Assembly: GCF_002865985.1 (NCBI RefSeq)
Contig: NZ_LNDD01000003.1
Location: 1 to 64,000 of the forward strand
Direction: 5' to 3'
DNA length: 64,000 bases
Source: Thermotoga sp. SG1
GTDB taxonomy: Bacteria > Thermotogota > Thermotogae > Thermotogales > Thermotogaceae
Below are positions 5,041 through 17,112 of the stretch, piece by piece. Position numbers and translations under genes: made by a program. Below the pieces are notes generated by a model. The model was given only the letters and a program-made list of their open reading frames with translations. It searched no databases and was not told the origin of the DNA. The first letter of the stretch is position 1. Each line of letters opens with the position of its first letter.

Positions 5041-5060
5041 ATATTTGAAACATCAAATAT
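5041..5060. promoter_or_regulatory. Perfect inverted-repeat operator before pelA
   Basis: ATATTTGA-AACA-TCAAATAT: two perfect 8-base arms with a 4-base spacer, typical of a dimeric winged-helix regulator. Related sites occur at 4864-4883 and 7631-7650. The GntR/FCD regulator encoded at 11532 is the natural candidate. Confidence 0.75.
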
Positions 5061-5079
5061 CTAAAGAGGAGGGATGTCC

Positions 5080-6177
5080 ATGAGGATCGTTCGGTTTGTT
5101 TCACTGGTGATGCTTCTTGTTGCTGCGGTAGCACTTTTTGGATCTGTAAAAGCTTCTCTCAGTGACAAACCGGTGGGATTTGCATCTGTTCCGACACCAG
5201 ATTTGCCGGAGGGTACCACGGGAGGATTTGGTGGCGAGATCGTTTTTGTTAAAACGGCGGAAGAACTTGAGAAATACGCAACATCAGAAGGAAAATATGT
5301 CATAGTCATTGATGGAGCGATCGTTTTTGAACCAAAGAGGGAGATCAAAGTTCTTTCAGATAAGACAATCGTTGGTATAAACGACGCAAAAATAATAGGA
5401 GGAGGGCTGGTTATAAAAAATGCACATAATGTAATCATAAGAAACATTCATTTCGAAGGATTTTACATGGAAGACGATCCACGGGGTAAAAAGTACGATT
5501 TTGATTACATCAACGTAGAAAATTCTCATCACGTCTGGATCGATCACTGTACTTTTGTGAATGGAAACGATGGAGCCATAGATATCAAGAAGTTTTCAAA
5601 TTACATAACAGTTTCCTGGAACAAATTCGTGGATCACGACAAGGTATCACTCGTTGGCTCTTCCGACAAGGAAGACCCAGAACAGGCCGGTCAGGCCTAT
5701 AAGGTCACCTATCACCACAACTACTTCAAAAACTGCATTCAGAGAATGCCGAGAATCAGATTTGGAATGGCGCACGTGTTCAACAACTTCTACAGTATGG
5801 GATTGAGAACGGGTGTTTCTGGAAACGTCTTTCCCATTTACGGCGTGGCTTCAGCAATGGGAGCGAAGGTTCATGTTGAAGGAAACTACTTCATGGGATA
5901 TGGTGCTGTCATGGCAGAAGCCGGTATTGCGTTCCTTCCCACCAGAATCATGGGGCCTGTGGAAGGTTATCTGACACTGGGTGAGGGCGACGCGAAGAAT
6001 GAATATTATTACTGCAAAGAACCTGAAGTCCGCCCAGTTGAGGAAGGGAAGCCTGCTTTTGATCCGCACGAATACTACGATTACACACTTGATCCGGTCA
6101 GTGAAGTTCCAAAGATAGTAGTGGAAGGATCAGGAGCAGGGAAACTGGTGTTTGAAGATCTCATGTCTTCTAAATGA
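5080..6177 (+). CDS. pelA: Secreted pectate lyase, polysaccharide lyase family 1
   Basis: Cleaves polygalacturonate by beta-elimination outside the cytoplasm and feeds oligogalacturonides to the importer. The protein has an N-terminal hydrophobic signal peptide and a parallel beta-helix. Family motifs are visible: VWIDHCTF, the Ca-binding DGAIDIKK stretch, VSWNKFVDHDKVSLVG, and QRMPRIRFGMAHVFNN with the catalytic arginine. The ATG at 5080 (365 residues) is preferred over the one at 5074 because GAGGAGG (5066-5072) is one base from 5074 but seven from 5080. It closely resembles my recollection of T. maritima PelA. Confidence 0.96.
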   Translation: MRIVRFVSLVMLLVAAVALFGSVKASLSDKPVGFASVPTPDLPEGTTGGFGGEIVFVKTAEELEKYATSEGKYVIVIDGAIVFEPKREIKVLSDKTIVGINDAKIIGGGLVIKNAHNVIIRNIHFEGFYMEDDPRGKKYDFDYINVENSHHVWIDHCTFVNGNDGAIDIKKFSNYITVSWNKFVDHDKVSLVGSSDKEDPEQAGQAYKVTYHHNYFKNCIQRMPRIRFGMAHVFNNFYSMGLRTGVSGNVFPIYGVASAMGAKVHVEGNYFMGYGAVMAEAGIAFLPTRIMGPVEGYLTLGEGDAKNEYYYCKEPEVRPVEEGKPAFDPHEYYDYTLDPVSEVPKIVVEGSGAGKLVFEDLMSSK

Positions 6178-6181
6178 CTTC

Positions 6182-6205
6182 TCCGGGTGGGAATTCCCAC
6201 CCGGA
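6182..6205. repeat. Perfect 24-base palindrome after pelA
   Basis: TCCGGGTGGGAA followed by its exact reverse complement, starting 5 bases after the pelA stop. No U-run follows on the plus strand, so it looks like an mRNA 3' stabiliser or processing hairpin and not a full terminator. Confidence 0.7.
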
Positions 6206-6233: not shown

Positions 6234-7617
6234 ATGAAACGGTTCGTGTTCGTCTTTGTTGCACTTCTTGTTCTTCAAATTCTTGTGATGGGTTTTGGTC
6301 TCAAGGAGATCAAACCGGGGGAATATTACAACCTTTCCGACTATGAACGTCTGACAGGGAAGAGGATCACGAAGTTCAACGAGGCTCCCATGTTGAAAGA
6401 GATGGTCGAGAAGGGATTGTTACCACCTGTTGAAGAAAGACTTCCGAAAAACCCCCTTGTTGTGACTCCCGTAAAAGAGATCGGACAGTACGGTGGCACA
6501 TGGAGGAGAGCCTGGTACGGTTTTTCTGACAAATGGGGACCAAACAAGATCTGCTTTGAGTATCCAATATTCAGAAGTAATGCATGGAAGTGAACTTGTG
6601 CCGAATGTCTTTGAAAGTATGATAGTGTCACCAGATGGAAGGTCCTTTACTTTCAAAATTAGAGAAGGGTTGAAGTGGTCTGATGGAGTTCCTGTCACAA
6701 CAGAAGATGTCAGATTCTGGTACGAAGACATACTTTTGAACGAGGAAATAACACCATCTATATCTGCCGATTTGAGATCTGGGGGAGAGGTTTTCAAACT
6801 GGAGATAGTGGACGACTATACTTTCAGAATGATCTTCAAAGAACCAAATATGGTACTGCCCTGGAGGATAACTAAATCCTGGGTGGCCGGAACGAGTTTC
6901 GTCGTTCCTTCTCACTATATCAAGCAGTTTCATCCAAAGTATGTAGGAAAAGAAAAGGCCCAGCAGATAGCAAAAGAAAACGGTTTTGATAACTGGTGGC
7001 AGTTTGTTCAGGCAAGATGTCTGAACAGTGATTCTTGGTTGAGGAACCCTGATCTTCCGGTTCTTTTCCCATGGAAGCTGTCCAGAAGAACCACAGACAC
7101 TATGCTAGTTCTTGAGAGAAATCCGTACTACTTCAAAATCGATCCAGAAGGTAATCAGCTCCCCTACATCGATGAAATAGTTCACTACCTCGTTCAGAAC
7201 TCTCAAATGCTTGTCTTCAAAGCGATAACCGGAGAGGTAGATATGCAGGGCAGGAATCTATCTGTAGCGGATCTTCAACTGTTGCTAGCTAATCAGGAAA
7301 AAGGAGGATACAGAGTCATTTTCGAAAAACAAGGTATAGGAAGTGATGTCACTCTCTGGTTCAACCAGAATTACGAAGAGGATGAAATACTTGCGTCTAT
7401 TCTCAGGGACGTGCGATTCAGGCAGGCTATTTCTCTTGCGATCAACAGGGAAGAAATATGGCAGCTTGTGTACCACGGACTTGGAGAACCGCGTCAGGCA
7501 TCTCTAATCAAAGGAGTGAAATACTACGATCCTGAATGGGAAAAAGCATTCGCAGAGTACGACCCTGAAAGAGCCAATAAACTCCTCGATGAATTAGAGA
7601 AAAAATTAGAAATATGA
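6234..7617 (+). pseudogene. Family 5 ABC substrate-binding protein, frameshifted and truncated
   Basis: Remnant of an oligopeptide/oligosaccharide-type binding protein. From the ATG at 6234 (ribosome site GGGAGG) a signal peptide and the conserved GQYGGTWRRAWYG entry are read, then a stop at 6591-6593. The family sequence resumes in the next frame as GSELVPNVFES and FTFKIREGLKWSDGVPVTTE, and runs to a stop at 7615-7617. The shift maps near 6577-6585 (about one base gained or two lost). The family is usually near 600 residues; here about 460 remain and the C-terminal lobe is missing. No dedicated permeases adjoin. Both lesions argue for true decay over a read error, though the shift alone could be an error. 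Confidence 0.85.
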
Positions 7618-7624
7618 ATTATGG

Positions 7625-7650
7625 TAAACTATACCTGAAACATCAAACAT
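7625..7650 (+). promoter_or_regulatory. Promoter -10 and operator of the sugar-acid operon
   Basis: An extended -10 box, TGG-TAAACT (7625-7630), is followed at once by ATACCTGAAACATCAAACAT (7631-7650), 17 of 20 identical to the pelA operator. No good -35 box is seen. The geometry (operator abutting the -10 box) matches the transporter promoter at 4884. Confidence 0.6.
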
Positions 7651-7668
7651 CTTAGGGGAGTGATGAAT

Positions 7669-8766
7669 TTGAAGGCACACGCCATGGTGCTGGAACGTTT
7701 CAACCATCCCCTTGTTTACAGAGAATTCGAGATAACTGAGATTCCACCTGGATCTGTCTTCGTTGAAATCCTCTCTGCCGGTGTATGTGGCTCGGATGTT
7801 CACATGTTCCACGGAGAAGATCCCAGAATTCCCCTTCCTATCATACTGGGACACGAAGGTGCAGGAAGAGTTGTTGAGGTGAACGGTGAAAAGAAAGACC
7901 TCAACGGAGAGTCGATAAAACCTGGTGATCTGATCGTATGGAACAGAGGAATCACCTGTGGAGAGTGTTTCTGGTGTAAAGTGTCAAAAGAGCCCTACCT
8001 GTGTCCAAACAGGAAGGTTTACGGAATAAACATGGGAAGCTCTGAGTATCCTCACCTCAGAGGGTGTTACAGCTCTCACATAGTACTCGATCCAAAGACG
8101 GATATTTTGAAGGTATCAGAAAAAGATGACCTCGATGTTTTAGCTATGGCTATGTGTTCTGGTGCAACAGCGTACCATGCTTTCGATGAATATCCAGAAA
8201 ACTTTGCTGGGAAGACAGTGGTGATACAGGGTGCAGGACCTCTAGGATTGTTCGCCGTTGTCATAGCACGATCTTTTGGGGCAGAGAAAGTGGTGGTGAT
8301 CGCCGGATCGCCGAACAGATTGAGAATTGCAGAAGAGATCGGAGCAGACATCACGCTGAACAGAAGAGAAACAACTGTTGAAGAGAGAAGAAAAATCGTC
8401 ATGGACATCACACATGGAAGAGGAGCAGATTTTGTTCTGGAGGCAACAGGAGACAGCAGAGCCCTTTTGGAAGGAGCGGAACTTTTGAGAAGAGGGGGAT
8501 ACTACGCCGTGGCAGGTGTTGCCGTTCCGCAGGATCCTGTGCCACTGAAGGTTTACGAATGGCTTGTTTTAAAAAATGCAACGTTCAAGGGTGTGTGGGT
8601 GAGTGACACATCTCACTTTATGAAGACAGTATCGATCGCTTCCAGAAACTACAACCTTCTTTCTAAGCTCATCACTCACAAACTTCCTCTGAAAGAGGCA
8701 AACAGAGCATTGGAACTCATGGAATCGAGGGAAGCATTGAAGGTAATACTCTATCCGGAGGGATGA
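7669..8766 (+). CDS. Zinc-dependent medium-chain alcohol/polyol dehydrogenase
   Basis: NAD(P)-dependent oxidoreductase of 365 residues. The catalytic-zinc Cys lies in VCGSDVHMF and the GHEGAGRV helix follows. A structural-zinc lobe has clustered cysteines (TCGECFWCKVSKEPYLC), and the Rossmann motif is GAGPLGLFAVVIA. I choose the TTG at 7669 because GGGGAG (7655-7660) is 8 bases from it but only 2 from the ATG at 7663. It is the first gene of the operon and overlaps the next by ATGA if that gene's first ATG is used. It may interconvert a sugar acid and a keto-sugar acid, or an alditol; substrate unknown. Confidence 0.9.
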   Translation: MKAHAMVLERFNHPLVYREFEITEIPPGSVFVEILSAGVCGSDVHMFHGEDPRIPLPIILGHEGAGRVVEVNGEKKDLNGESIKPGDLIVWNRGITCGECFWCKVSKEPYLCPNRKVYGINMGSSEYPHLRGCYSSHIVLDPKTDILKVSEKDDLDVLAMAMCSGATAYHAFDEYPENFAGKTVVIQGAGPLGLFAVVIARSFGAEKVVVIAGSPNRLRIAEEIGADITLNRRETTVEERRKIVMDITHGRGADFVLEATGDSRALLEGAELLRRGGYYAVAGVAVPQDPVPLKVYEWLVLKNATFKGVWVSDTSHFMKTVSIASRNYNLLSKLITHKLPLKEANRALELMESREALKVILYPEG

Positions 8767-8768
8767 GA

Positions 8769-10109
8769 ATGCTGGAGAAGGCAAAAAGAGTTGAAGAAGA
8801 AATTTTGAATCACGTGAAGGAACCAGAAATTCCAGACCGAGTGGTTGAAATCACCGAGTTTGGAGCAATCGGTGACGGAAAGGCCGACTGTACTGAGAGT
8901 TTCAGAAAAGCCATAGAATTCCTCTCAGAACAGGGTGGAGGAAGACTCGTGGTTCCCCACGGGGTGTTTCTGACAGGGCCCATTCACCTGAAAAGCAACA
9001 TAGAGCTTCATGTTCTGGGGACGATAAAGTTCATCTCGGATCCGAAAAGATATCTTCCCGTTGTTCTGACACGGTTTGAAGGGATAGAATTGTACAACTA
9101 CTCTCCATTGATTTACGCTCTGGACTGTGAAAACGTTGCGATCACCGGAAGTGGTGTGCTGGATGGTTCTGCAGACAACGAACACTGGTGGCCATGGAAG
9201 GGAAAAAAAGAATTTGGCTGGAAGGAAGGAACTCCCAGTCAAAATGAAGATGTGAAAAAGTTGAAAGAGATGGCAGAAAAAGGAACTCCCGTTGAAGAGA
9301 GGATCTTTGGTGAAGGACATTACCTGAGACCGAGTTTCATCCAGTTTTACAGGTGCAGAAACGTTCTGATGAAGGGTGTAAAAGTCGTCAACTCTCCTAT
9401 GTGGTGTGTACATCCGGTTCTTTCTGAGAATGTGATCATCAGAGGCATAGAGATTTCGAGCACGGGCCCGAACAACGATGGGATCGATCCCGAATCCTGT
9501 AGGTACGTGCTCATAGAGAACTGCAGATTCGATACGGGAGACGACTCTGTGGTCATCAAGTCCGGAAGAGATGCGGATGGAAGGCGTATAAACGTCCCAT
9601 CAGAGTATATCCTTGTTCGAAACAACATCGTACTGAGTCAGGCAAGTCATGGAGGTCTGGTCATAGGAAGCGAGATGTCCGGTGGAGTGAAAAACGTGGT
9701 GGCAAGAAACAACGTTTACATGAACGTGGAAAGAGCACTCAGATTGAAAACAAACTCCAGACGTGGTGGATACATGGAAAACATCTTTTTTGTTGATAAC
9801 GTGGTGATAGACGTTTCAGAGGAAGTGATCAGGATAAACCTCAGGTACGACAACGAAGAGGGTGAGTATCCCCCTGTTGTCAGGAACGTTTTTGTGAAGA
9901 ATTTAAAAGCGACCGGTGGAAAGTACGCGATTCGTGTGGAAGGACTGGAGAACGACTTTGTAAAAGACGTTATGATATCTGATACTATAATAGAGGGAGC
10001 AAAGATTTCTGTTCTTCTGGAATTCGGGCAGATAGGCATGGAAAACGTAACCATAAACGGATCACGGTTCGAAAAACTCTATCTGGAAGGAAAGGCACTG
10101 TTGAAATGA
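8769..10109 (+). CDS. pelB: Exo-poly-alpha-D-galacturonosidase, glycoside hydrolase family 28
   Basis: Releases galacturonate from oligogalacturonides, probably in the cytoplasm since no signal peptide is present. GH28 catalytic blocks are clear: NNDGIDPES, DTGDDSVVIKSG, SHGGLVIGSE and the RLKTN substrate-binding motif, on a beta-helix. The ATG at 8769 (446 residues) is preferred over 8763 because GGAGG (8757-8761) is one base from 8763 and seven from 8769. Very similar to the characterised T. maritima exo-enzyme as I recall it. It turns imported oligomers into monomer for the downstream uronate genes. Confidence 0.95.
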   Translation: MLEKAKRVEEEILNHVKEPEIPDRVVEITEFGAIGDGKADCTESFRKAIEFLSEQGGGRLVVPHGVFLTGPIHLKSNIELHVLGTIKFISDPKRYLPVVLTRFEGIELYNYSPLIYALDCENVAITGSGVLDGSADNEHWWPWKGKKEFGWKEGTPSQNEDVKKLKEMAEKGTPVEERIFGEGHYLRPSFIQFYRCRNVLMKGVKVVNSPMWCVHPVLSENVIIRGIEISSTGPNNDGIDPESCRYVLIENCRFDTGDDSVVIKSGRDADGRRINVPSEYILVRNNIVLSQASHGGLVIGSEMSGGVKNVVARNNVYMNVERALRLKTNSRRGGYMENIFFVDNVVIDVSEEVIRINLRYDNEEGEYPPVVRNVFVKNLKATGGKYAIRVEGLENDFVKDVMISDTIIEGAKISVLLEFGQIGMENVTINGSRFEKLYLEGKALLK

Positions 10110-10125
10110 AATGGAGGTGGTACCT

Positions 10126-11535
10126 GTGAAATCCAGTATTGGCCTTATAGGTCTTGCAGTGATGGGACAGAATCTTGCCTTAAACATCGCAAGAAAAGGT
10201 TATAAAGTCTCTGTCTTCAACAGAACAGCCCAGAGAACAGAAGAGTTCGTGAAAAATCATGTGAAGGACGAAGAAATAGAGCCTCACTACGACATAAAAG
10301 AGTTTGTAGAATCCCTTGAGAGGCCAAGAAAGATCATTCTGATGGTGAAAGCAGGAAAACCCGTCGACGATACTATTTCCCAGCTTCTTTCTTATCTTGA
10401 ACCGGGAGATCTGATTGTAGATGGTGGGAATTCACATTATCTGGACACAGAAAGACGCTTTAAAGATCTCACAGAGAAAGGATTTCTTTTTCTTGGAATG
10501 GGTGTTTCGGGTGGTGAATATGGAGCCCTCCATGGGCCTTCTCTCATGCCTGGTGGAAGTAAAGAAGCGTACAGCCTGGTCGAAGATATTCTCCTGAAGA
10601 TCGCTGCAAAGACGGAAGATGGTCCCTGCTGCACCTACGTTGGGGAAAGATCCGCCGGGCACTTCGTGAAGATGGTTCACAACGGAATAGAATATGCCAT
10701 CATGCAGGCGATAGCAGAGATATATCACATCATGAGAGATGTCCTGAACCTTTCCGCCGATGAGATGGCCAGTATCTTCAAAGAGTGGAACTCTGGAGAA
10801 CTCAATTCCTTCCTTGTGGAGATCACCTACAAGATCCTGAAAAGAAAAGATGAAGAAACAGGAAAACCGATGGTCGATGTGATACTGGACAGGGCAGAAC
10901 AAAAGGGAACTGGAAAATGGACTTCTCAGGCAGCCCTGGATCTTGGAATTCCCACTCCCTCCATAAACATGGCGGTGGTTGAAAGGGTGATTTCCCACTT
11001 CAAAGAGGAAAGAACAAGACTTTCAAAACTGTATAATAAGAGAAGAAGAGTTCTTCAAAAAAGCAAGGAATTTCTGAAAGATCTCAGAGACTCTCTCTTT
11101 TTTGCCATGCTTACAGCCTTTTCTCAGGGTATGTGGTTGATCTCAGAAGCGTCAAAGGAGTTCAACTACAACGTGGACCTTTCTGAAGTACTCAGAATAT
11201 GGAAAGGAGGATGTATCATAAGAGCGAAGTTGATAGACACGCTGAGAAGGTACATATCGGACGAGAATGCATATTTGCTGGAAAACGAGGAAGTAATCTC
11301 TTTGTTGAAGGAACGAATAGATTCTCTGAAAAATGTCTTGAAGGTGTCCATAGAAAATGAAATTCCTGTTCCCGTTTTGAGTTCTGCTTACAGCTACTTC
11401 GTGAGTCTAACGGAGGAAAGGCTCCCAGCGAATCTCATTCAGGCTCAAAGGGATTTCTTCGGAGCACACACGTTTGAGAGAGTGGATAAAGATGGTGTGT
11501 TCCACATCAACTGGGAGGAAGGAGAGATAGAATGA
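10126..11535 (+). CDS. gnd: 6-phosphogluconate dehydrogenase, decarboxylating
   Basis: Oxidises 6-phosphogluconate to ribulose 5-phosphate and CO2 with NADP(H). It starts at GTG 10126 behind GGAGGTGG (10113-10120), giving the usual 469 residues. The Rossmann motif GLAVMGQNLALNIA is followed by the NADP-type NRT signature, LIVDGGNSHY, GVSGGEYGALHGPSLMPGG, the catalytic Lys/Asn segment GHFVKMVHNGIEY and the C-terminal QAQRDFFGAHTFER. It sits with gluconate kinase in one operon, so gluconate enters the pentose phosphate pathway directly. Confidence 0.97.
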   Translation: MKSSIGLIGLAVMGQNLALNIARKGYKVSVFNRTAQRTEEFVKNHVKDEEIEPHYDIKEFVESLERPRKIILMVKAGKPVDDTISQLLSYLEPGDLIVDGGNSHYLDTERRFKDLTEKGFLFLGMGVSGGEYGALHGPSLMPGGSKEAYSLVEDILLKIAAKTEDGPCCTYVGERSAGHFVKMVHNGIEYAIMQAIAEIYHIMRDVLNLSADEMASIFKEWNSGELNSFLVEITYKILKRKDEETGKPMVDVILDRAEQKGTGKWTSQAALDLGIPTPSINMAVVERVISHFKEERTRLSKLYNKRRRVLQKSKEFLKDLRDSLFFAMLTAFSQGMWLISEASKEFNYNVDLSEVLRIWKGGCIIRAKLIDTLRRYISDENAYLLENEEVISLLKERIDSLKNVLKVSIENEIPVPVLSSAYSYFVSLTEERLPANLIQAQRDFFGAHTFERVDKDGVFHINWEEGEIE

Positions 11536-12176
11536 AAAAGATCGAAGTAGACCTTGTGAGAACGAAGGTCTACAGTCTTCTCAAAGAGATGATACTGAAC
11601 CATGAGTTGAAACTCGGAGAAAAACTCAACGTGAGAGAACTCTCTGAGAAACTGGGAATCAGTTTCACACCGGTGAGGGATGCACTCCTTCAACTTGCAA
11701 CGGAAGGTCTTGTGAAGGTGGTGCCGAGGGTTGGTTTCTTTGTTACCGACGTTGACGAGAAATTCATAAGAGAGACGATAGAGACAAGGATCATGATGGA
11801 GGTTTTCTGTCTTGAGAACTACTTCGAAAGAATCGCTTCCTCTGAGGAACTCTTGAAGATAAAAGAAGAGATAGAAAACGTTGAAAGCAGTCTGAAAAGG
11901 GACCTGTTCGACGATTCCGATGAAAGACTTCACAAACTCTTCATTAAAGCCTCCGGGAACGATCTCATCATTTCTCTTTACGAAAAAATATGGGACCGCA
12001 TCGATCTAGTAAGACACCTGAACGAAAGGTACATCGTCTCAAATAGAGAACACAAAGAACTCATAGAGAGTATCCTGCGTGGTGACAAAGAAGAAGCAGT
12101 TGAGAAACTGAAGGAGCATCTGAGAAACGTGGAGGAGGAGACGATAAGAAATCTGTACACGTACGAGAAGGGGTGA
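11532..12176 (+). CDS. GntR-family regulator with FCD ligand domain (UxaR-type)
   Basis: Local transcription regulator of 214 residues, probably a repressor released by a uronate or sugar-acid intermediate. The N-terminal winged helix (residues about 8-75) contains LNVRELSEKLGISFTPVRDA. The C-terminal all-helical FCD domain keeps its metal-site pattern of Asp and His residues (DDSDERLH, VRHL, REHKEL, KEHLRN). It overlaps gnd by ATGA and lies inside the operon it likely controls. The inverted-repeat sites at 4864, 5041 and 7631 are its probable targets (inference). Confidence 0.92.
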   Translation: MKKIEVDLVRTKVYSLLKEMILNHELKLGEKLNVRELSEKLGISFTPVRDALLQLATEGLVKVVPRVGFFVTDVDEKFIRETIETRIMMEVFCLENYFERIASSEELLKIKEEIENVESSLKRDLFDDSDERLHKLFIKASGNDLIISLYEKIWDRIDLVRHLNERYIVSNREHKELIESILRGDKEEAVEKLKEHLRNVEEETIRNLYTYEKG

Positions 12177-12180
12177 GGGT

Positions 12181-13629
12181 ATGTCTTTGAAGGTGTTCAA
12201 AGATCATTTTGGAAGAGGATATGAAGTTTACGAAGGTTCTTATAGAGAAAAAGAAGGATTCTCCTTCTTTCTGGTAAAAGGAGAAGAAGGGAAAGTATTG
12301 GTAATCTCAGGTGAAAAGGTACCGGAAGGTGCTTCGTTCTTCAAAAAGCATCATGTGGATGAAAAGACGTTTTTCTTCTGTGAGAAGAGCCACGAAAATC
12401 TGGAGATCCTGAGAAAACACTTTCCCGATCTGAAACCCACCCGAGCAGGATTGAGGGCGTCCTTTGGAACCGGTGACAGGCTCGGAATCACTACACCTGC
12501 CCATGTGAGGGCACTGAGAGGTTCTGGTCTGTTTCCTGTTTTTGCCCAGCAGTCTGTGAGAGAAAATGAAAGAACAGGAAGAACCTGGAGAGATGTACTC
12601 GATGACGCAACCTGGGGAGTGTTCCAGGAGGGGTACACAGAAGGATTTGGAGCGGATGCAGACCATGTGAAAAATCCTGAAGATCTTGTCGCAGCAGCAA
12701 AAGAAGGCTTTTCCATGTTCACGATCGATCCTTCGGATCACGTGAGGAACCTTTCAAAACTCAGTGAAAGAGAAAAGAACGAGATGTTCGAGGAAATACT
12801 GAAAAAAGAGCGCATAGACAGGATTTACCTTGGGAAGAGGTACACCATCCTTGGTGAAAGACTGGAGTTCGACGAGAAAAGTCTGAGGGATGCTGCCCTG
12901 GTGTACTACGATGCGATCACCCACGTGGATATGATGTATCAAATTTTGAAAGAGGAGATCTCGGACTTCGATTTTGAGGTTTCCGTTGACGAGACAGAAA
13001 CACCTACCAGTCCGCTGTTTCACATATTCGTTGTGGAAGAACTCAGAAGACGGGGTGTGGAATTCACCAACCTCGCTTTGAGGTTCATCGGTGAGTGGGA
13101 AAAAGGTATCGATTACAAAGGAGATCTCGGCTTGTTCGAGAAGGAAATCAAAATGCACGCTGAAATTTCGAGGATGTTCGAGGGCTACAAGTTGTCTTTA
13201 CACTCCGGAAGCGACAAGTTCTCCGTGTATCCAGCCTTCTCTTCTGCGACGGACGGTCTTTTCCATGTGAAGACGGCGGGAACGAGCTATCTTGAGGCGA
13301 TAAAGGTGATCTCGATGGTCAGCCCTGCTCTCTTTCGTGAAATCTACAGATGTGCCCTCGAGCACTTTGAAGAGGACAGAAAGTCCTATCACATATCCGC
13401 CGATCTTTCAAAAGTTCCGGATGTGGAGAAGGTGGAGGATGAAGACCTGCCAGCGCTTTTTGAGGACACCAACGTGAGACAGCTGATTCACGTCACCTAC
13501 GGTTCTGTCCTCAAAGATAAATCCCTGAAGGAAAGGATATTCGAAGCCCTCGATCGAAACGAAAAACTCTTCTACGAAACGGTAGAAAGTCACATAAAAA
13601 GGCACGTGGATCTTTTGAGGGGTGATTGA
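12181..13629 (+). CDS. uxaE: Tagaturonate-fructuronate epimerase
   Basis: Converts D-tagaturonate to D-fructuronate, joining galacturonate and glucuronate catabolism. The 482-residue protein matches the UxaE family described in Thermotoga, by recollection of sequence and of the same gene order. Polar conserved blocks include GADADHVKNPEDL, DETETPTSP, FIGEWEKGIDYKGD and LSLHSGSDKFSVYP, which probably supply metal and substrate ligands. The ATG has a GGGGTGAGGG ribosome site 4 bases after the regulator stop. No uronate isomerase (UxaC) lies in the window. Confidence 0.88.
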   Translation: MSLKVFKDHFGRGYEVYEGSYREKEGFSFFLVKGEEGKVLVISGEKVPEGASFFKKHHVDEKTFFFCEKSHENLEILRKHFPDLKPTRAGLRASFGTGDRLGITTPAHVRALRGSGLFPVFAQQSVRENERTGRTWRDVLDDATWGVFQEGYTEGFGADADHVKNPEDLVAAAKEGFSMFTIDPSDHVRNLSKLSEREKNEMFEEILKKERIDRIYLGKRYTILGERLEFDEKSLRDAALVYYDAITHVDMMYQILKEEISDFDFEVSVDETETPTSPLFHIFVVEELRRRGVEFTNLALRFIGEWEKGIDYKGDLGLFEKEIKMHAEISRMFEGYKLSLHSGSDKFSVYPAFSSATDGLFHVKTAGTSYLEAIKVISMVSPALFREIYRCALEHFEEDRKSYHISADLSKVPDVEKVEDEDLPALFEDTNVRQLIHVTYGSVLKDKSLKERIFEALDRNEKLFYETVESHIKRHVDLLRGD

Positions 13630-13630
13630 G

Positions 13631-14389
13631 GTGTTCGATCTCAAGGGAAGGGTTGCCCTTGTGACTGGCGGTTCTCGGGGTCTTGGATTTGGTATCGCTC
13701 AGGGACTGGCAGAGGCCGGTTGCTCGGTGATCGTTGCAAGCAGAAACTTTTCAGAAGCCTCAGAAGCAGCACAGAGACTGAAGAGGGATTACGAAGTAGA
13801 GGCGATGCCCCTCCGGTGCGACGTGTCAAATTACGAAGAAGTGAAAAACCTGATGAATACCATTGAAAAAGAGTTAGGAAAACTCGATGTGGTGGTCAAC
13901 GCGGCGGGAATAAACAGAAGACACCCGGCGGAGGAGTTTCCCATAGATGAGTTCAGACAGGTGATAGAGGTGAACCTTTTTGGAACCTATTATGTGTGCA
14001 GAGAGGCCTTTCGGCTCCTCAGAAAATCCGATAATCCTTCGATCATAAACATTGGATCCCTCACCGTTGAAGAGGTCACAATGCCAAACATCGCTGCGTA
14101 CGCTGCATCGAAGGGAGGAGTCGCCTCTCTAACGAAGGCCCTGGCGAAAGAGTGGGGAAAGTACGGTATCCGGGTGAACGCCATCGCCCCTGGCTGGTAC
14201 AGAACAAAGATGACAGAGGCGGTCTTCAGCGATCCCGAGAAACTGGACTACATGCTGAGGAGAATTCCTCTCGGCAGAACGGGTGTTCCGGAGGATCTGA
14301 AAGGAGTGGCCGTTTTTCTTGCTTCCGAAGAGGCGCGGTATGTGACGGGACAGATCATCTTCGTGGACGGTGGATGGACCGCAAATTGA
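13631..14389 (+). CDS. Short-chain dehydrogenase/reductase, gluconate 5-dehydrogenase-like
   Basis: Cytoplasmic NAD(P)-dependent oxidoreductase of 252 residues. Family marks: TGGSRGLGFGIA cofactor loop, NAAG, catalytic Ser in NIGSLT, YAASK, and a VTGQIIFVDGG end. I use the GTG at 13631 because GAGGGGTGAT (13617-13626) spaces correctly; the GTG at 13622 is inside that site. Closest in feel to gluconate 5-dehydrogenase or 2-deoxygluconate 3-dehydrogenase. Between uxaE and a sugar-acid epimerase, reduction of fructuronate to mannonate is plausible, but the substrate cannot be read from sequence. Confidence 0.9.
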   Translation: MFDLKGRVALVTGGSRGLGFGIAQGLAEAGCSVIVASRNFSEASEAAQRLKRDYEVEAMPLRCDVSNYEEVKNLMNTIEKELGKLDVVVNAAGINRRHPAEEFPIDEFRQVIEVNLFGTYYVCREAFRLLRKSDNPSIINIGSLTVEEVTMPNIAAYAASKGGVASLTKALAKEWGKYGIRVNAIAPGWYRTKMTEAVFSDPEKLDYMLRRIPLGRTGVPEDLKGVAVFLASEEARYVTGQIIFVDGGWTAN

Positions 14390-14401
14390 AGGAGTGAGAG
14401 C

Positions 14402-15685
14402 ATGACGGTGTATCTGGAAGGAAATCCACTGACCGAGGAAAAGATAAAGGAAGGCCTTGCAAAACTTGTGAGCGACCTTGGAAGGGCGAAAAAGGCCCTG
14501 GTTGTTCACACGGATTATACCCGTGTGGATTTCACCCATCTGATCGCAAAAAATCTCTACAGGTTCCTCCTGGAGAAGGGTTTAGAAGAATTCCATACGC
14601 TCAACGCGAGTGGTACGCACAGGGCGATGAAGGTGGAAGAGTTTGAAAAGAAACTGGGTATCTCAAGAGACGAAAAAGGAGTGTTTTTCCACAACCACGA
14701 GTTCTTCAATCCAGAAGCCCTGGCGTTTGTTGGAACGCTTCCTTCCGATTTTGTCTCCGAGATGACAGAAGGGGATCTGGAAGAGGAGATACCGATAAAA
14801 GTGAACAGAATGCTCTTTGAGGATTTCGATGCGATCTTTTTCATAAACGGCACCGTCCCTCACGAATCAACGGGATTTTCGGGAGGGTTGAAGATCGTCA
14901 TTCCTGGTGTTGCCAGTACGGAGGTGGTGGATACCTTCCACTGGGCGGCGGTACTCATGGGTATTCCAAAGCTCATAGGTACGGTGGATAACCCCGCGCG
15001 GAAGATCATAAACAGGGCGTCGGAGATGATCTTCCAGAAGATCAAAGCAAGATCCTTCACCCTGAACATGGTGTACGAGGAAGAAGAAGAGGTGATTCCA
15101 AGAGCGCTCTACATAGACGAGGGATTCGAGGGTTTTCTGAGGGCGTACGAGAAAGCGTGTGAACTCAGCGCTCAACTCCACGTGAAATACATAGACAGGC
15201 CCCTCAAAAGAGCCGTTCAGGTTATAGGAGAAGAATACGACGAGGTCTGGACCGCCGGAAAGGGTTCTTATAAACTCCAAAGGCCCGGTGTGATGGCAAA
15301 GGGAGGCCAGATAATCATTTACGCACCTCATATAAAGAGATTTCACTCCAATCCTCAGATGGACAGATGGATCAGGGAGATAGGATATCACTGCAAAGAC
15401 TACGTGAAGTGGTATCTGAAAAAGCATCCTGACTTCAACAAAAACGTTGCAGCTCACGTGATCAACGTGAGGGGAGCAGGAACGTTCGATCCAGAAACAG
15501 GAAAGGAGGAGTTCGAGTTCGATGTGATTCTGGCTACCTCCATTCCCGAAGATGCATGCAAGGCGGTGAACCTGGGCTACATGGACCCCTTGAAGATAAG
15601 GAAAGAAGATTTCATGAACGAGGATTCCCTCTGGATAGTTCCCGGTGGAAAATATCTCTACGATCTGAGGGAGAGGAGAAGATGA
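14402..15685 (+). CDS. LarA-family nickel-pincer racemase/epimerase, probable sugar-acid 2-epimerase
   Basis: A 427-residue lactate racemase homologue. The nickel-pincer nucleotide ligands are present with lactate-racemase spacing: Lys164 (SGGLK, the thioamide attachment residue) lies 10 residues after His154 and 16 before His180. A candidate second acid/base His99 is in NHE, and DYTR and SGTHR match N-terminal family motifs. The family epimerises the alpha carbon of 2-hydroxy acids, and a gluconate 2-epimerase subgroup has been reported. Position next to uxaE, gluconate kinase and gnd points to mannonate/gluconate interconversion (inference). It overlaps gntK by ATGA. The cofactor genes larB, larC and larE are not in the window. 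Confidence 0.85.
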   Translation: MTVYLEGNPLTEEKIKEGLAKLVSDLGRAKKALVVHTDYTRVDFTHLIAKNLYRFLLEKGLEEFHTLNASGTHRAMKVEEFEKKLGISRDEKGVFFHNHEFFNPEALAFVGTLPSDFVSEMTEGDLEEEIPIKVNRMLFEDFDAIFFINGTVPHESTGFSGGLKIVIPGVASTEVVDTFHWAAVLMGIPKLIGTVDNPARKIINRASEMIFQKIKARSFTLNMVYEEEEEVIPRALYIDEGFEGFLRAYEKACELSAQLHVKYIDRPLKRAVQVIGEEYDEVWTAGKGSYKLQRPGVMAKGGQIIIYAPHIKRFHSNPQMDRWIREIGYHCKDYVKWYLKKHPDFNKNVAAHVINVRGAGTFDPETGKEEFEFDVILATSIPEDACKAVNLGYMDPLKIRKEDFMNEDSLWIVPGGKYLYDLRERRR

Positions 15686-17112
15686 TAGCGGCCATAGACA
15701 TTGGAACAGAGAGCGCTCGTTTGATGTTCAAAACTGACGGTGAGTGGAAAGTCCTGAAAAAGTCCTACAGGATCTTTTTCCCATCTCTCGAAGCGGTGGA
15801 GCAGGATCCAGAGGAAATCTTGGCAGCCGTCTATGACCTTTTGAAGCAGATTCCAAAAAAGGAAGATGTTCTGTACGTTGGAATGAGTTCTGTGTTTCAC
15901 AGTATAGTGGGTCTCGATGAAGATTTCAACCCGGTAACGCCCCTTCTCAACTGGGCGGATAGGAGGTCCTATCACGAAAAGGAAGAACTCGAAAAGAAAT
16001 ACGGGACCAGGTTCTTCTACGAAAGAACGGCCTGCCCGCTTCATCCGATGTACTGGCCTTCGAAGATCCTATGGATGAAGAAGAACTCAGATTCAAAGAA
16101 GTTCTGTTCCATAAAGGCCTTCATAGTCAACAAACTGACGGGAGAGTTCGTGGAGGAGCTTTCCCTTGCTTCCGGAACTGGAATGATAAACATCCACTCC
16201 CTCGAGTGGGACGACGAAATCCTTGAGATCGTGGGGGTGAAGAAAGAAAACCTGCCAGAACTCATGTCACCCTACACTCAGTTGAAAGCGAAAGAAGATG
16301 TAGCGAAAGAACTCGGTTTCAAGGAAGTCTATCTGGTCCTCGGTGGAGGAGACGGAGTAATGACGAACGTTGGACTGAACGCTATGAGTCCAGATTCTGC
16401 CACCGTAACGATCGGAACAAGCGGTGCGTTTCGTGTGGTTCTGAACAGATCCGTGATAGATCGGGAAGGCATCTCCACGTGGTGCTATCTGATCGATGAG
16501 AAAAACTATGTTCTTGGTGGTGCGATAAACAACGGCGGAATCGTGCTGATGTGGCTGAAAGATGTTATGAAGTTCGACAGTTACGACGAGATCATAGAGG
16601 AGGCAAAGAAGTCTTCGATCGGGGCAAGCGGTCTTGTTTTCCTTCCCTTCCTCAACGGTGAAAGGGCACCACACTGGAGAGAAAGGTACAGGGGTGTTCT
16701 GGTGGGACTTGCTTCATCTCACAGAAGAAGCGATATCGCCAGGGCGGCGCTTGAGGGGATCTGTTTCAGAATAAAAGACATATACAACGCGGTGAAGAGG
16801 GTGGGGAATGTGGATCCTGTTCGGATCGTTGCAACGGGAGGCTTCACCAGTTCGCCTTACTGGGTTCAGCTCCTTGCGGATGTTCTGGGAAAGGATATCG
16901 CGGTCACAAACGTGGAGAATCCTTCCGCCTTCGGTGCCTATGTAATGGCGCTGAAGTCTCTTGGAGAGAGCGTAGAAGAATTCCTTGAAAAGGAAGTACG
17001 TGTGGAGCAGGTTTTTCGCTGTGATCCCGAAAGAAACGAAAAATACGAAAAACTCTACGATGATTACAGACTTCTCTACGAAAAACTTGTGGACTATTTC
17101 TACAGGGAGTAA
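15682..17112 (+). CDS. gntK: FGGY-family gluconate kinase
   Basis: Phosphorylates gluconate with ATP to 6-phosphogluconate, the substrate of Gnd in the same operon. It has 476 residues in the two-domain FGGY fold: phosphate loop IDIGTESARL, second-domain TIGTSGAF, LNGERAPHW and VATGGFTSSPYWVQLLADV. The ATG at 15682 lies within ATGA with the preceding stop and has a GGAGAGGAG ribosome site. It is the last gene of the operon; its end overlaps the convergent aspartase gene by 13 bases, with no terminator between. Other sugar-acid or sugar substrates cannot be excluded by sequence. Confidence 0.9.
   Translation: MIAAIDIGTESARLMFKTDGEWKVLKKSYRIFFPSLEAVEQDPEEILAAVYDLLKQIPKKEDVLYVGMSSVFHSIVGLDEDFNPVTPLLNWADRRSYHEKEELEKKYGTRFFYERTACPLHPMYWPSKILWMKKNSDSKKFCSIKAFIVNKLTGEFVEELSLASGTGMINIHSLEWDDEILEIVGVKKENLPELMSPYTQLKAKEDVAKELGFKEVYLVLGGGDGVMTNVGLNAMSPDSATVTIGTSGAFRVVLNRSVIDREGISTWCYLIDEKNYVLGGAINNGGIVLMWLKDVMKFDSYDEIIEEAKKSSIGASGLVFLPFLNGERAPHWRERYRGVLVGLASSHRRSDIARAALEGICFRIKDIYNAVKRVGNVDPVRIVATGGFTSSPYWVQLLADVLGKDIAVTNVENPSAFGAYVMALKSLGESVEEFLEKEVRVEQVFRCDPERNEKYEKLYDDYRLLYEKLVDYFYRE

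Follow-up and report, generated by a model that had tools for sequence, protein, structure and literature searches.

In Thermotoga sp. SG1, an operon for pectin and galacturonate use under the regulator UxaR very probably (we put the likelihood at about 87%) encodes a shunt from mannonate through gluconate into the pentose phosphate pathway, running alongside the branch through 2-keto-3-deoxygluconate (KDG). The operon occupies positions 7660–17112 of the 64,000-nt stretch analyzed here (contig NZ_LNDD01000003.1, positions 1 to 64,000; hereafter the window), where the layout of the open reading frames (ORFs) shows eight co-directional genes with adjacent or overlapping ends. The galacturonate-to-gluconate route is already known. 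PMC6978723 describes a 2012 proposal by Rodionova et al. in which mannonate is epimerized to gluconate, followed by gluconokinase and 6-phosphogluconate dehydrogenase, and PMC7583248 credits the proposal of the GntE2 role to Rodionova et al. 2012. The initial annotation of this DNA had called it a possible new galacturonate route; the biochemistry behind that description is well supported by the operon match, the GntE2 activity, and the conserved residues, but the route is not new, having been proposed in 2012 and its epimerase shown in 2020.

The operon and its proposed pathway

Pfam and NCBIfam profile matches provided family names for all eight operon products, each encoded on the plus strand. 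The first two genes are aldH (7660–8766, although the start could be 7669), encoding a Zn-dependent alcohol dehydrogenase (PF00107/PF08240; best Protein Data Bank [PDB] match 1vj0, 762 bits), and pelB (8763–10109), encoding a family GH28 exo-polygalacturonase (PF00295; 3jur, Exo-poly-alpha-D-galacturonosidase, 907 bits). They are followed by gnd (10111–11535), for a decarboxylating 6-phosphogluconate dehydrogenase of the NADP type (TIGR00873, 625 bits against a cut-off of 427), uxaR (11532–12176), for a GntR/FCD regulator (PF00392 and PF07729; 3sxy, 399 bits), and uxaE (12181–13629), for a tagaturonate/fructuronate 3-epimerase (PF16257, 637 bits; 9lhw, 487 bits). The short-chain dehydrogenase/reductase (SDR) gene uxaD (13622–14389), whose product is the proposed fructuronate reductase (mannonate dehydrogenase), matches 1vl8, deposited as a gluconate 5-dehydrogenase, with 501 bits. 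Last come gntE (14402–15685), for a LarA-family nickel-pincer D-mannonate/D-gluconate 2-epimerase (4nar, 930 bits over 426 residues), and gntK (15682–17112), for an FGGY gluconate kinase (PF00370/PF02782; best PDB match 3gbt, a gluconate kinase), the likely start of which, 15682, overlaps the gntE stop. Gene content and order (aldH-pelB-gnd-uxaR-uxaE-uxaD-gntE-gntK) are those of the T. maritima operon, gene for gene. The genes listed in the initial annotation are all present, co-directional, and named by Pfam/NCBIfam and PDB matches; that list left out uxaR, and it placed the start of the SDR ORF at 13631 instead of 13622.

In the proposed pathway, PelB would free galacturonate, which UxaC, encoded outside the operon, would convert to tagaturonate; UxaE would epimerize tagaturonate to fructuronate, and UxaD would reduce this to D-mannonate. 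GntE, a nickel-pincer LarA homolog, would then invert C2 of D-mannonate to yield D-gluconate, GntK would convert D-gluconate to 6-phosphogluconate, and Gnd would decarboxylate the latter to ribulose 5-phosphate. Carbon would divide at mannonate, going either to pyruvate or to pentose phosphate. We infer the activities of these particular proteins, as well as the share of flux through each branch; in vitro activity of UxaE and GntE, UxaR binding, and pectin induction are literature results on the T. maritima orthologs. The SDR was named uxaD in T. maritima (PMC3750489), and later papers call UxaD a fructuronate reductase. At its SDR cofactor site, UxaD has an Arg residue after the second strand (VASRN). 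SDRs that depend on NADP(H) typically have Arg at this position. Gnd is assigned to the NADP type by its family model, TIGR00873. Since Gnd is of the NADP type and UxaD carries the NADP(H)-type Arg, the reductase and Gnd could balance each other, making the route redox-neutral. The classical isomerase (Ashwell-type) galacturonate/glucuronate pathway, whose genes are present in this genome, has the steps to mannonate in common with the proposed route, but from there it proceeds by dehydration of mannonate to KDG, and its end products are pyruvate and glyceraldehyde 3-phosphate rather than pentose phosphate.

The epimerase step is the best documented by comparison with T. maritima. The apoprotein of T. 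maritima GntE2 is available as PDB entry 4nar, and GntE2 is the D-gluconate 2-epimerase of LarA group 20 (PMC7583248). GntE2 epimerizes D-mannonate to D-gluconate in vitro with a kcat of 197 per s and an optimum of 80–90 °C (Desguin et al. 2020, PMC7583248), and mannonate probably gains access to the pentose phosphate pathway by this reaction (PMC7583248). GntE of SG1 is >90% identical to GntE2 over the full length, with no functional difference seen in the sequence, and it retains each of the eleven residues that have been discussed for GntE2. These comprise the nickel-pincer cofactor residues R41, K164, and H180 (GntE2 numbering), the catalytic residues D38, H73, H154, and K287, which correspond to LarA D72, H108, H174, and K298 (H73 being placed by alignment to the motif), and the substrate-side residues E155, S156, G286, and N348. 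All but S156 are invariant among the eight GntE proteins compared, which represent several families of Thermotogota. We infer that the SG1 protein probably epimerizes D-mannonate/D-gluconate as well. A genome-wide search for the cofactor genes larB, larC, and larE, which the initial annotation had suggested, found all three above the NCBIfam curated cut-offs in a single operon (larC, larB, larE; about C4:37.5–40.2 kb).

The KDG branch, shared operators, and gntE in relatives

A single run at about C1:388–394 kb contains uxuA, uxuB, kdgK, kdgA, and a kdgR-like gene, with uxaC adjoining; the kdgK assignment scores under the named equivalog cut-offs. The initial annotation had reported no gene for mannonate dehydratase, KDG kinase, or 2-keto-3-deoxy-6-phosphogluconate (KDPG) aldolase, which holds within the operon but not genome-wide, as uxuA, kdgK, and kdgA lie on C1. 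The absence of the KDG branch was thus rejected as an argument for the shunt, the branch being encoded on C1 with a similar UxaR-like operator. Since the KDG-branch genes are encoded elsewhere in the genome, the shunt would run beside the classical route. The gnd gene of the operon is the sole gnd in the genome: it gives the single PF00393 match, and no second gnd was found by a search with this profile. Because the only gnd sits in the pectin operon, regulation by pectin may extend to the oxidative pentose phosphate pathway. No Edd gene was found in the genome, in which the lone ILVD/EDD gene lies after ilvC and is most likely ilvD; Edd is therefore probably absent.

Pairwise comparison of three upstream regions yielded a common 17-base sequence, TGAAACATCAAAYATCT, which stands before pelA and the operon and recurs, altered at two or three positions, ahead of kdgA. 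The UxaR-like candidate operators in the window are TGAAACATCAAATATCT upstream of pelA (5046–5062) and TGAAACATCAAACATCT upstream of the operon (7636–7652), both on the plus strand. Allowing up to two mismatches, the window contains three matches to the 17-mer, where shuffled sequences predict 0.13, a ratio to be read with the pattern having been built from two of these sites. The 17-mer resembles the published UxaR motif in its length of 17 nt (PMC3750489). In T. maritima, the operon aldH-pelB-gnd-uxaRED-gntEK, its regulator UxaR, UxaR-site binding, and pectin induction have been described, and a UxaR site also precedes kdgA-kdgK-uxuB-uxuA (PMC3750489). Since the 17-base sequence is shared among the regions before pelA, the operon, and kdgA, the shunt operon and the KDG branch are probably both under UxaR.

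The pectate lyase gene pelA (5074–6177, plus strand; PF00544, 122 bits) belongs to the same regulon as a separate transcription unit. Directly 3′ of it, at about 6182–6203, lies a perfect GC-rich palindrome, CCGGGTGGGAATTCCCACCCGG, and T. maritima has a terminator after pelA and agu4A-TM0435 between pelA and aldH (PMC3750489); the palindrome is perhaps part of the terminator reported there. Between pelA and aldH, SG1 has a broken family-5 solute-binding-protein gene (6234–7617, plus strand), in which the signal-peptide frame ends after ~119 codons; the coding sequence then carries on in a different frame and lacks its C-terminal portion. The operon described here comes from a different Thermotoga strain or species, which the PDB matches of its proteins place near T. 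maritima without making the two identical, and differs from that of T. maritima in having this broken gene at the place of agu4A-TM0435.

A GntE-type protein was found in 24 of 103 Thermotogota genomes, and half of these 24 lack UxuA above the cut-off. The 12 UxuA-less genomes include G095, from the same genus, and G063, G064, G066, and G020, all 99% complete. UxuA and KDPG aldolase are both absent from five of the 24 (G001, G002, G004, G020, and G100), in which mannonate would have no known outlet other than the shunt. The idea that every UxuA-less genome also lacks KDPG aldolase was rejected, as the aldolase is missing in only these five. G020 is also without UxaE and may take in glucuronate instead. 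Since some relatives lack UxuA, and some of them also KDPG aldolase, in-cell flux through the shunt is directly testable in these organisms.

Across families and phyla, uxaE, the SDR gene, gnd, and gntE stay clustered, the Gnd being of one of two types and the kinase of one of several. The gnd gene beside gntE is of a short type in G001, G020, and G100–G102; the one in G100 scores 399 bits with the NAD-type model TIGR00872 (cut-off 297). Such short genes lie beside gntE, in place of the long NADP-type gene, at L044:8404–9387 (minus strand; NAD-type TIGR00872) and at L043 near 9069–9896 (minus strand). This exchange of one Gnd type for another, still beside gntE, argues that Gnd belongs to the route. 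In G058, G059, and G061 (loci L036, L051, and L050) and in G063 (L037), which is also without UxuA, uxaE-SDR-gntE clusters occur with no recognized kinase or gnd alongside; in G058, no kinase was found beside gnd either, only transporter genes. GntE homologs with 47–51% identity and no pathway genes nearby occur at L099, L100, L101, L102, and L109, which belong to Bdellovibrionales, Gemmataceae, Pirellulales, and other metagenome-assembled genomes.

Points against the shunt and alternative readings

Several observations weigh against the mannonate–gluconate shunt. Neither galacturonate nor gluconate alone supports growth of T. maritima, and pectin induces its gntE, gntK, and gnd only 2- to 5-fold (PMC3750489). 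The KM of GntE2 for mannonate is high, at 17 mM (PMC7583248). In SG1, the best named NCBIfam model for GntK, the gluconokinase model TIGR01314, gives 358 bits and so falls short of its 649-bit cut-off. Finally, no in vivo flux data for the route were found in the literature.

Epimerases being reversible in principle, GntE might run mainly in the reverse direction, a reading consistent with the complete KDG branch and its similar operator and with the sole ILVD/EDD gene following ilvC and most likely being ilvD. We consider this very unlikely, since gntE shares its operon with gntK and gnd, UxuA is missing in 12 and KDPG aldolase in five of the 24 gntE-bearing Thermotogota genomes, and T. maritima fails to grow on gluconate (PMC3750489).

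The order of the reduction and epimerization steps might also be swapped. GntE would then epimerize fructuronate (5-keto-mannonate) at C2 to 5-ketogluconate, which chemically is its C2 epimer, and the SDR would act as a gluconate 5-dehydrogenase, giving gluconate as the same end product with no mannonate intermediate. The nearest solved relative of UxaD, 1vl8, was deposited under the name gluconate 5-dehydrogenase, which is also that of its best NCBIfam match (below the cut-off), and the high mannonate KM of GntE2 points the same way. Against this, GntE2 has a kcat of 197 per s on mannonate (PMC7583248), the equivalent SDR of relatives best matches the D-mannonate oxidoreductase model, above its cut-off, and later papers name UxaD fructuronate reductase. 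Because of the mannonate turnover by GntE2 and the match of the relatives' SDR to D-mannonate oxidoreductase, we favor reduction before epimerization and regard the swapped order as very unlikely.

The galacturonate-phosphoketolase route of Lactobacillus suebicus (PMC6978723) likewise links mannonate to 6-phosphogluconate and Gnd but, unlike the route proposed here, phosphorylation precedes epimerization. A corresponding kinase-first scheme in SG1, with mannonate phosphorylated to 6-phosphomannonate and epimerized at the phosphate level, has a precedent in activities measured in L. suebicus extracts (PMC6978723) but is extremely unlikely, as unphosphorylated mannonate is a substrate of GntE2 (PMC7583248) and the GntE2 pocket residues are unchanged in SG1 GntE.

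Phosphofructokinase-family genes beside gntE in relatives

Beyond Thermotoga and its closest relative, gntE is often followed by something other than an FGGY kinase gene. At 16 distinct loci in Thermotogota, Aerophobetes, and Atribacterota, a ~437-residue protein of the 6-phosphofructokinase (PFK) family follows gntE in the gluconate kinase slot. PFK-family genes lie directly after gntE at L105:10257–11570, L085, L086, L087, L089–L096, L108, and L116, and others occur at L043:6292–7611 (minus strand), L038:9494–10816, and, in the gntE cluster or nearby, at L137, L145, L161, and L160. The same parts occur in another order in three Spirochaetes clusters and, more loosely, at one Phycisphaerales locus. 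In most of the 16 loci, the next gene encodes a HAD-like protein. This conserved neighbor of the PFK-family kinase, seen at L044:4733–5887 (minus strand) and L161:8052–8939 (plus strand), matches no NCBIfam model and is absent from the Thermotoga operon. Actinomycetota have a third kind of kinase, a PfkB-family protein encoded between gnd and gntE (L097:4860–5939; L098 near 7921). We considered and rejected the idea that, in Thermotogota, UxuA and the gntE-linked PFK-family kinase never occur together, as G065 has both.

Canonical PFK genes are also present in most of the examined Thermotogota genomes with a linked PFK-family gene. In a phylogenetic tree, sixteen of the linked proteins formed one clade with full support and a long stem. 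The linked protein matches the pyrophosphate (PPi)-phosphofructokinase model PRK14072 with 353 bits (cut-off 273), and all linked sequences carry the PPi-type donor motifs GG(E/G/N)DS and PKTIDND, in which we take Asp at 104 and Lys at 124 (E. coli numbering) to be the PPi-type donor residues. In E. coli PFK, the 6-phosphate group of fructose 6-phosphate is presumably held by R162, R243, H249, and R252. In the linked proteins, the arginines at 243 and 252 are retained, 249 has become Thr, and nearly every sequence has Pro or Thr at 162; Pro at 162 also occurs in one housekeeping PFK paralog (L167). The secondary structure of a predicted model supports the placement of these phosphate-site positions. 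The structure predicted from a 15-sequence alignment (predicted local distance difference test score 84) has a PFK fold with the PPi-PFK 3hno as the nearest solved structure and leaves the substrate unsettled.

We conjecture that the two retained arginines suit a carboxylate in place of the phosphate. Tentatively, the gntE-linked PfkA-superfamily proteins of Thermotogota beyond Thermotoga, Aerophobetes, Atribacterota, and, in rearranged clusters, Spirochaetes might be hexonate kinases acting on gluconate or mannonate, perhaps with PPi as the donor, although this is on balance doubtful; a sedoheptulose 7-phosphate or fructose 6-phosphate kinase is another possible identity.

The route itself, which branches off from pectin sugars toward pentose phosphate via a nickel-pincer enzyme, has been published, and only the kinase replacement looks novel. 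A search of literature that left most subscription journals outside turned up no report of a gluconate kinase of the PFK family. If the hexonate kinase proposal is true, a clade from several little-cultured phyla that matches a phosphofructokinase model would be misnamed, and the PfkA superfamily would extend to sugar acids.

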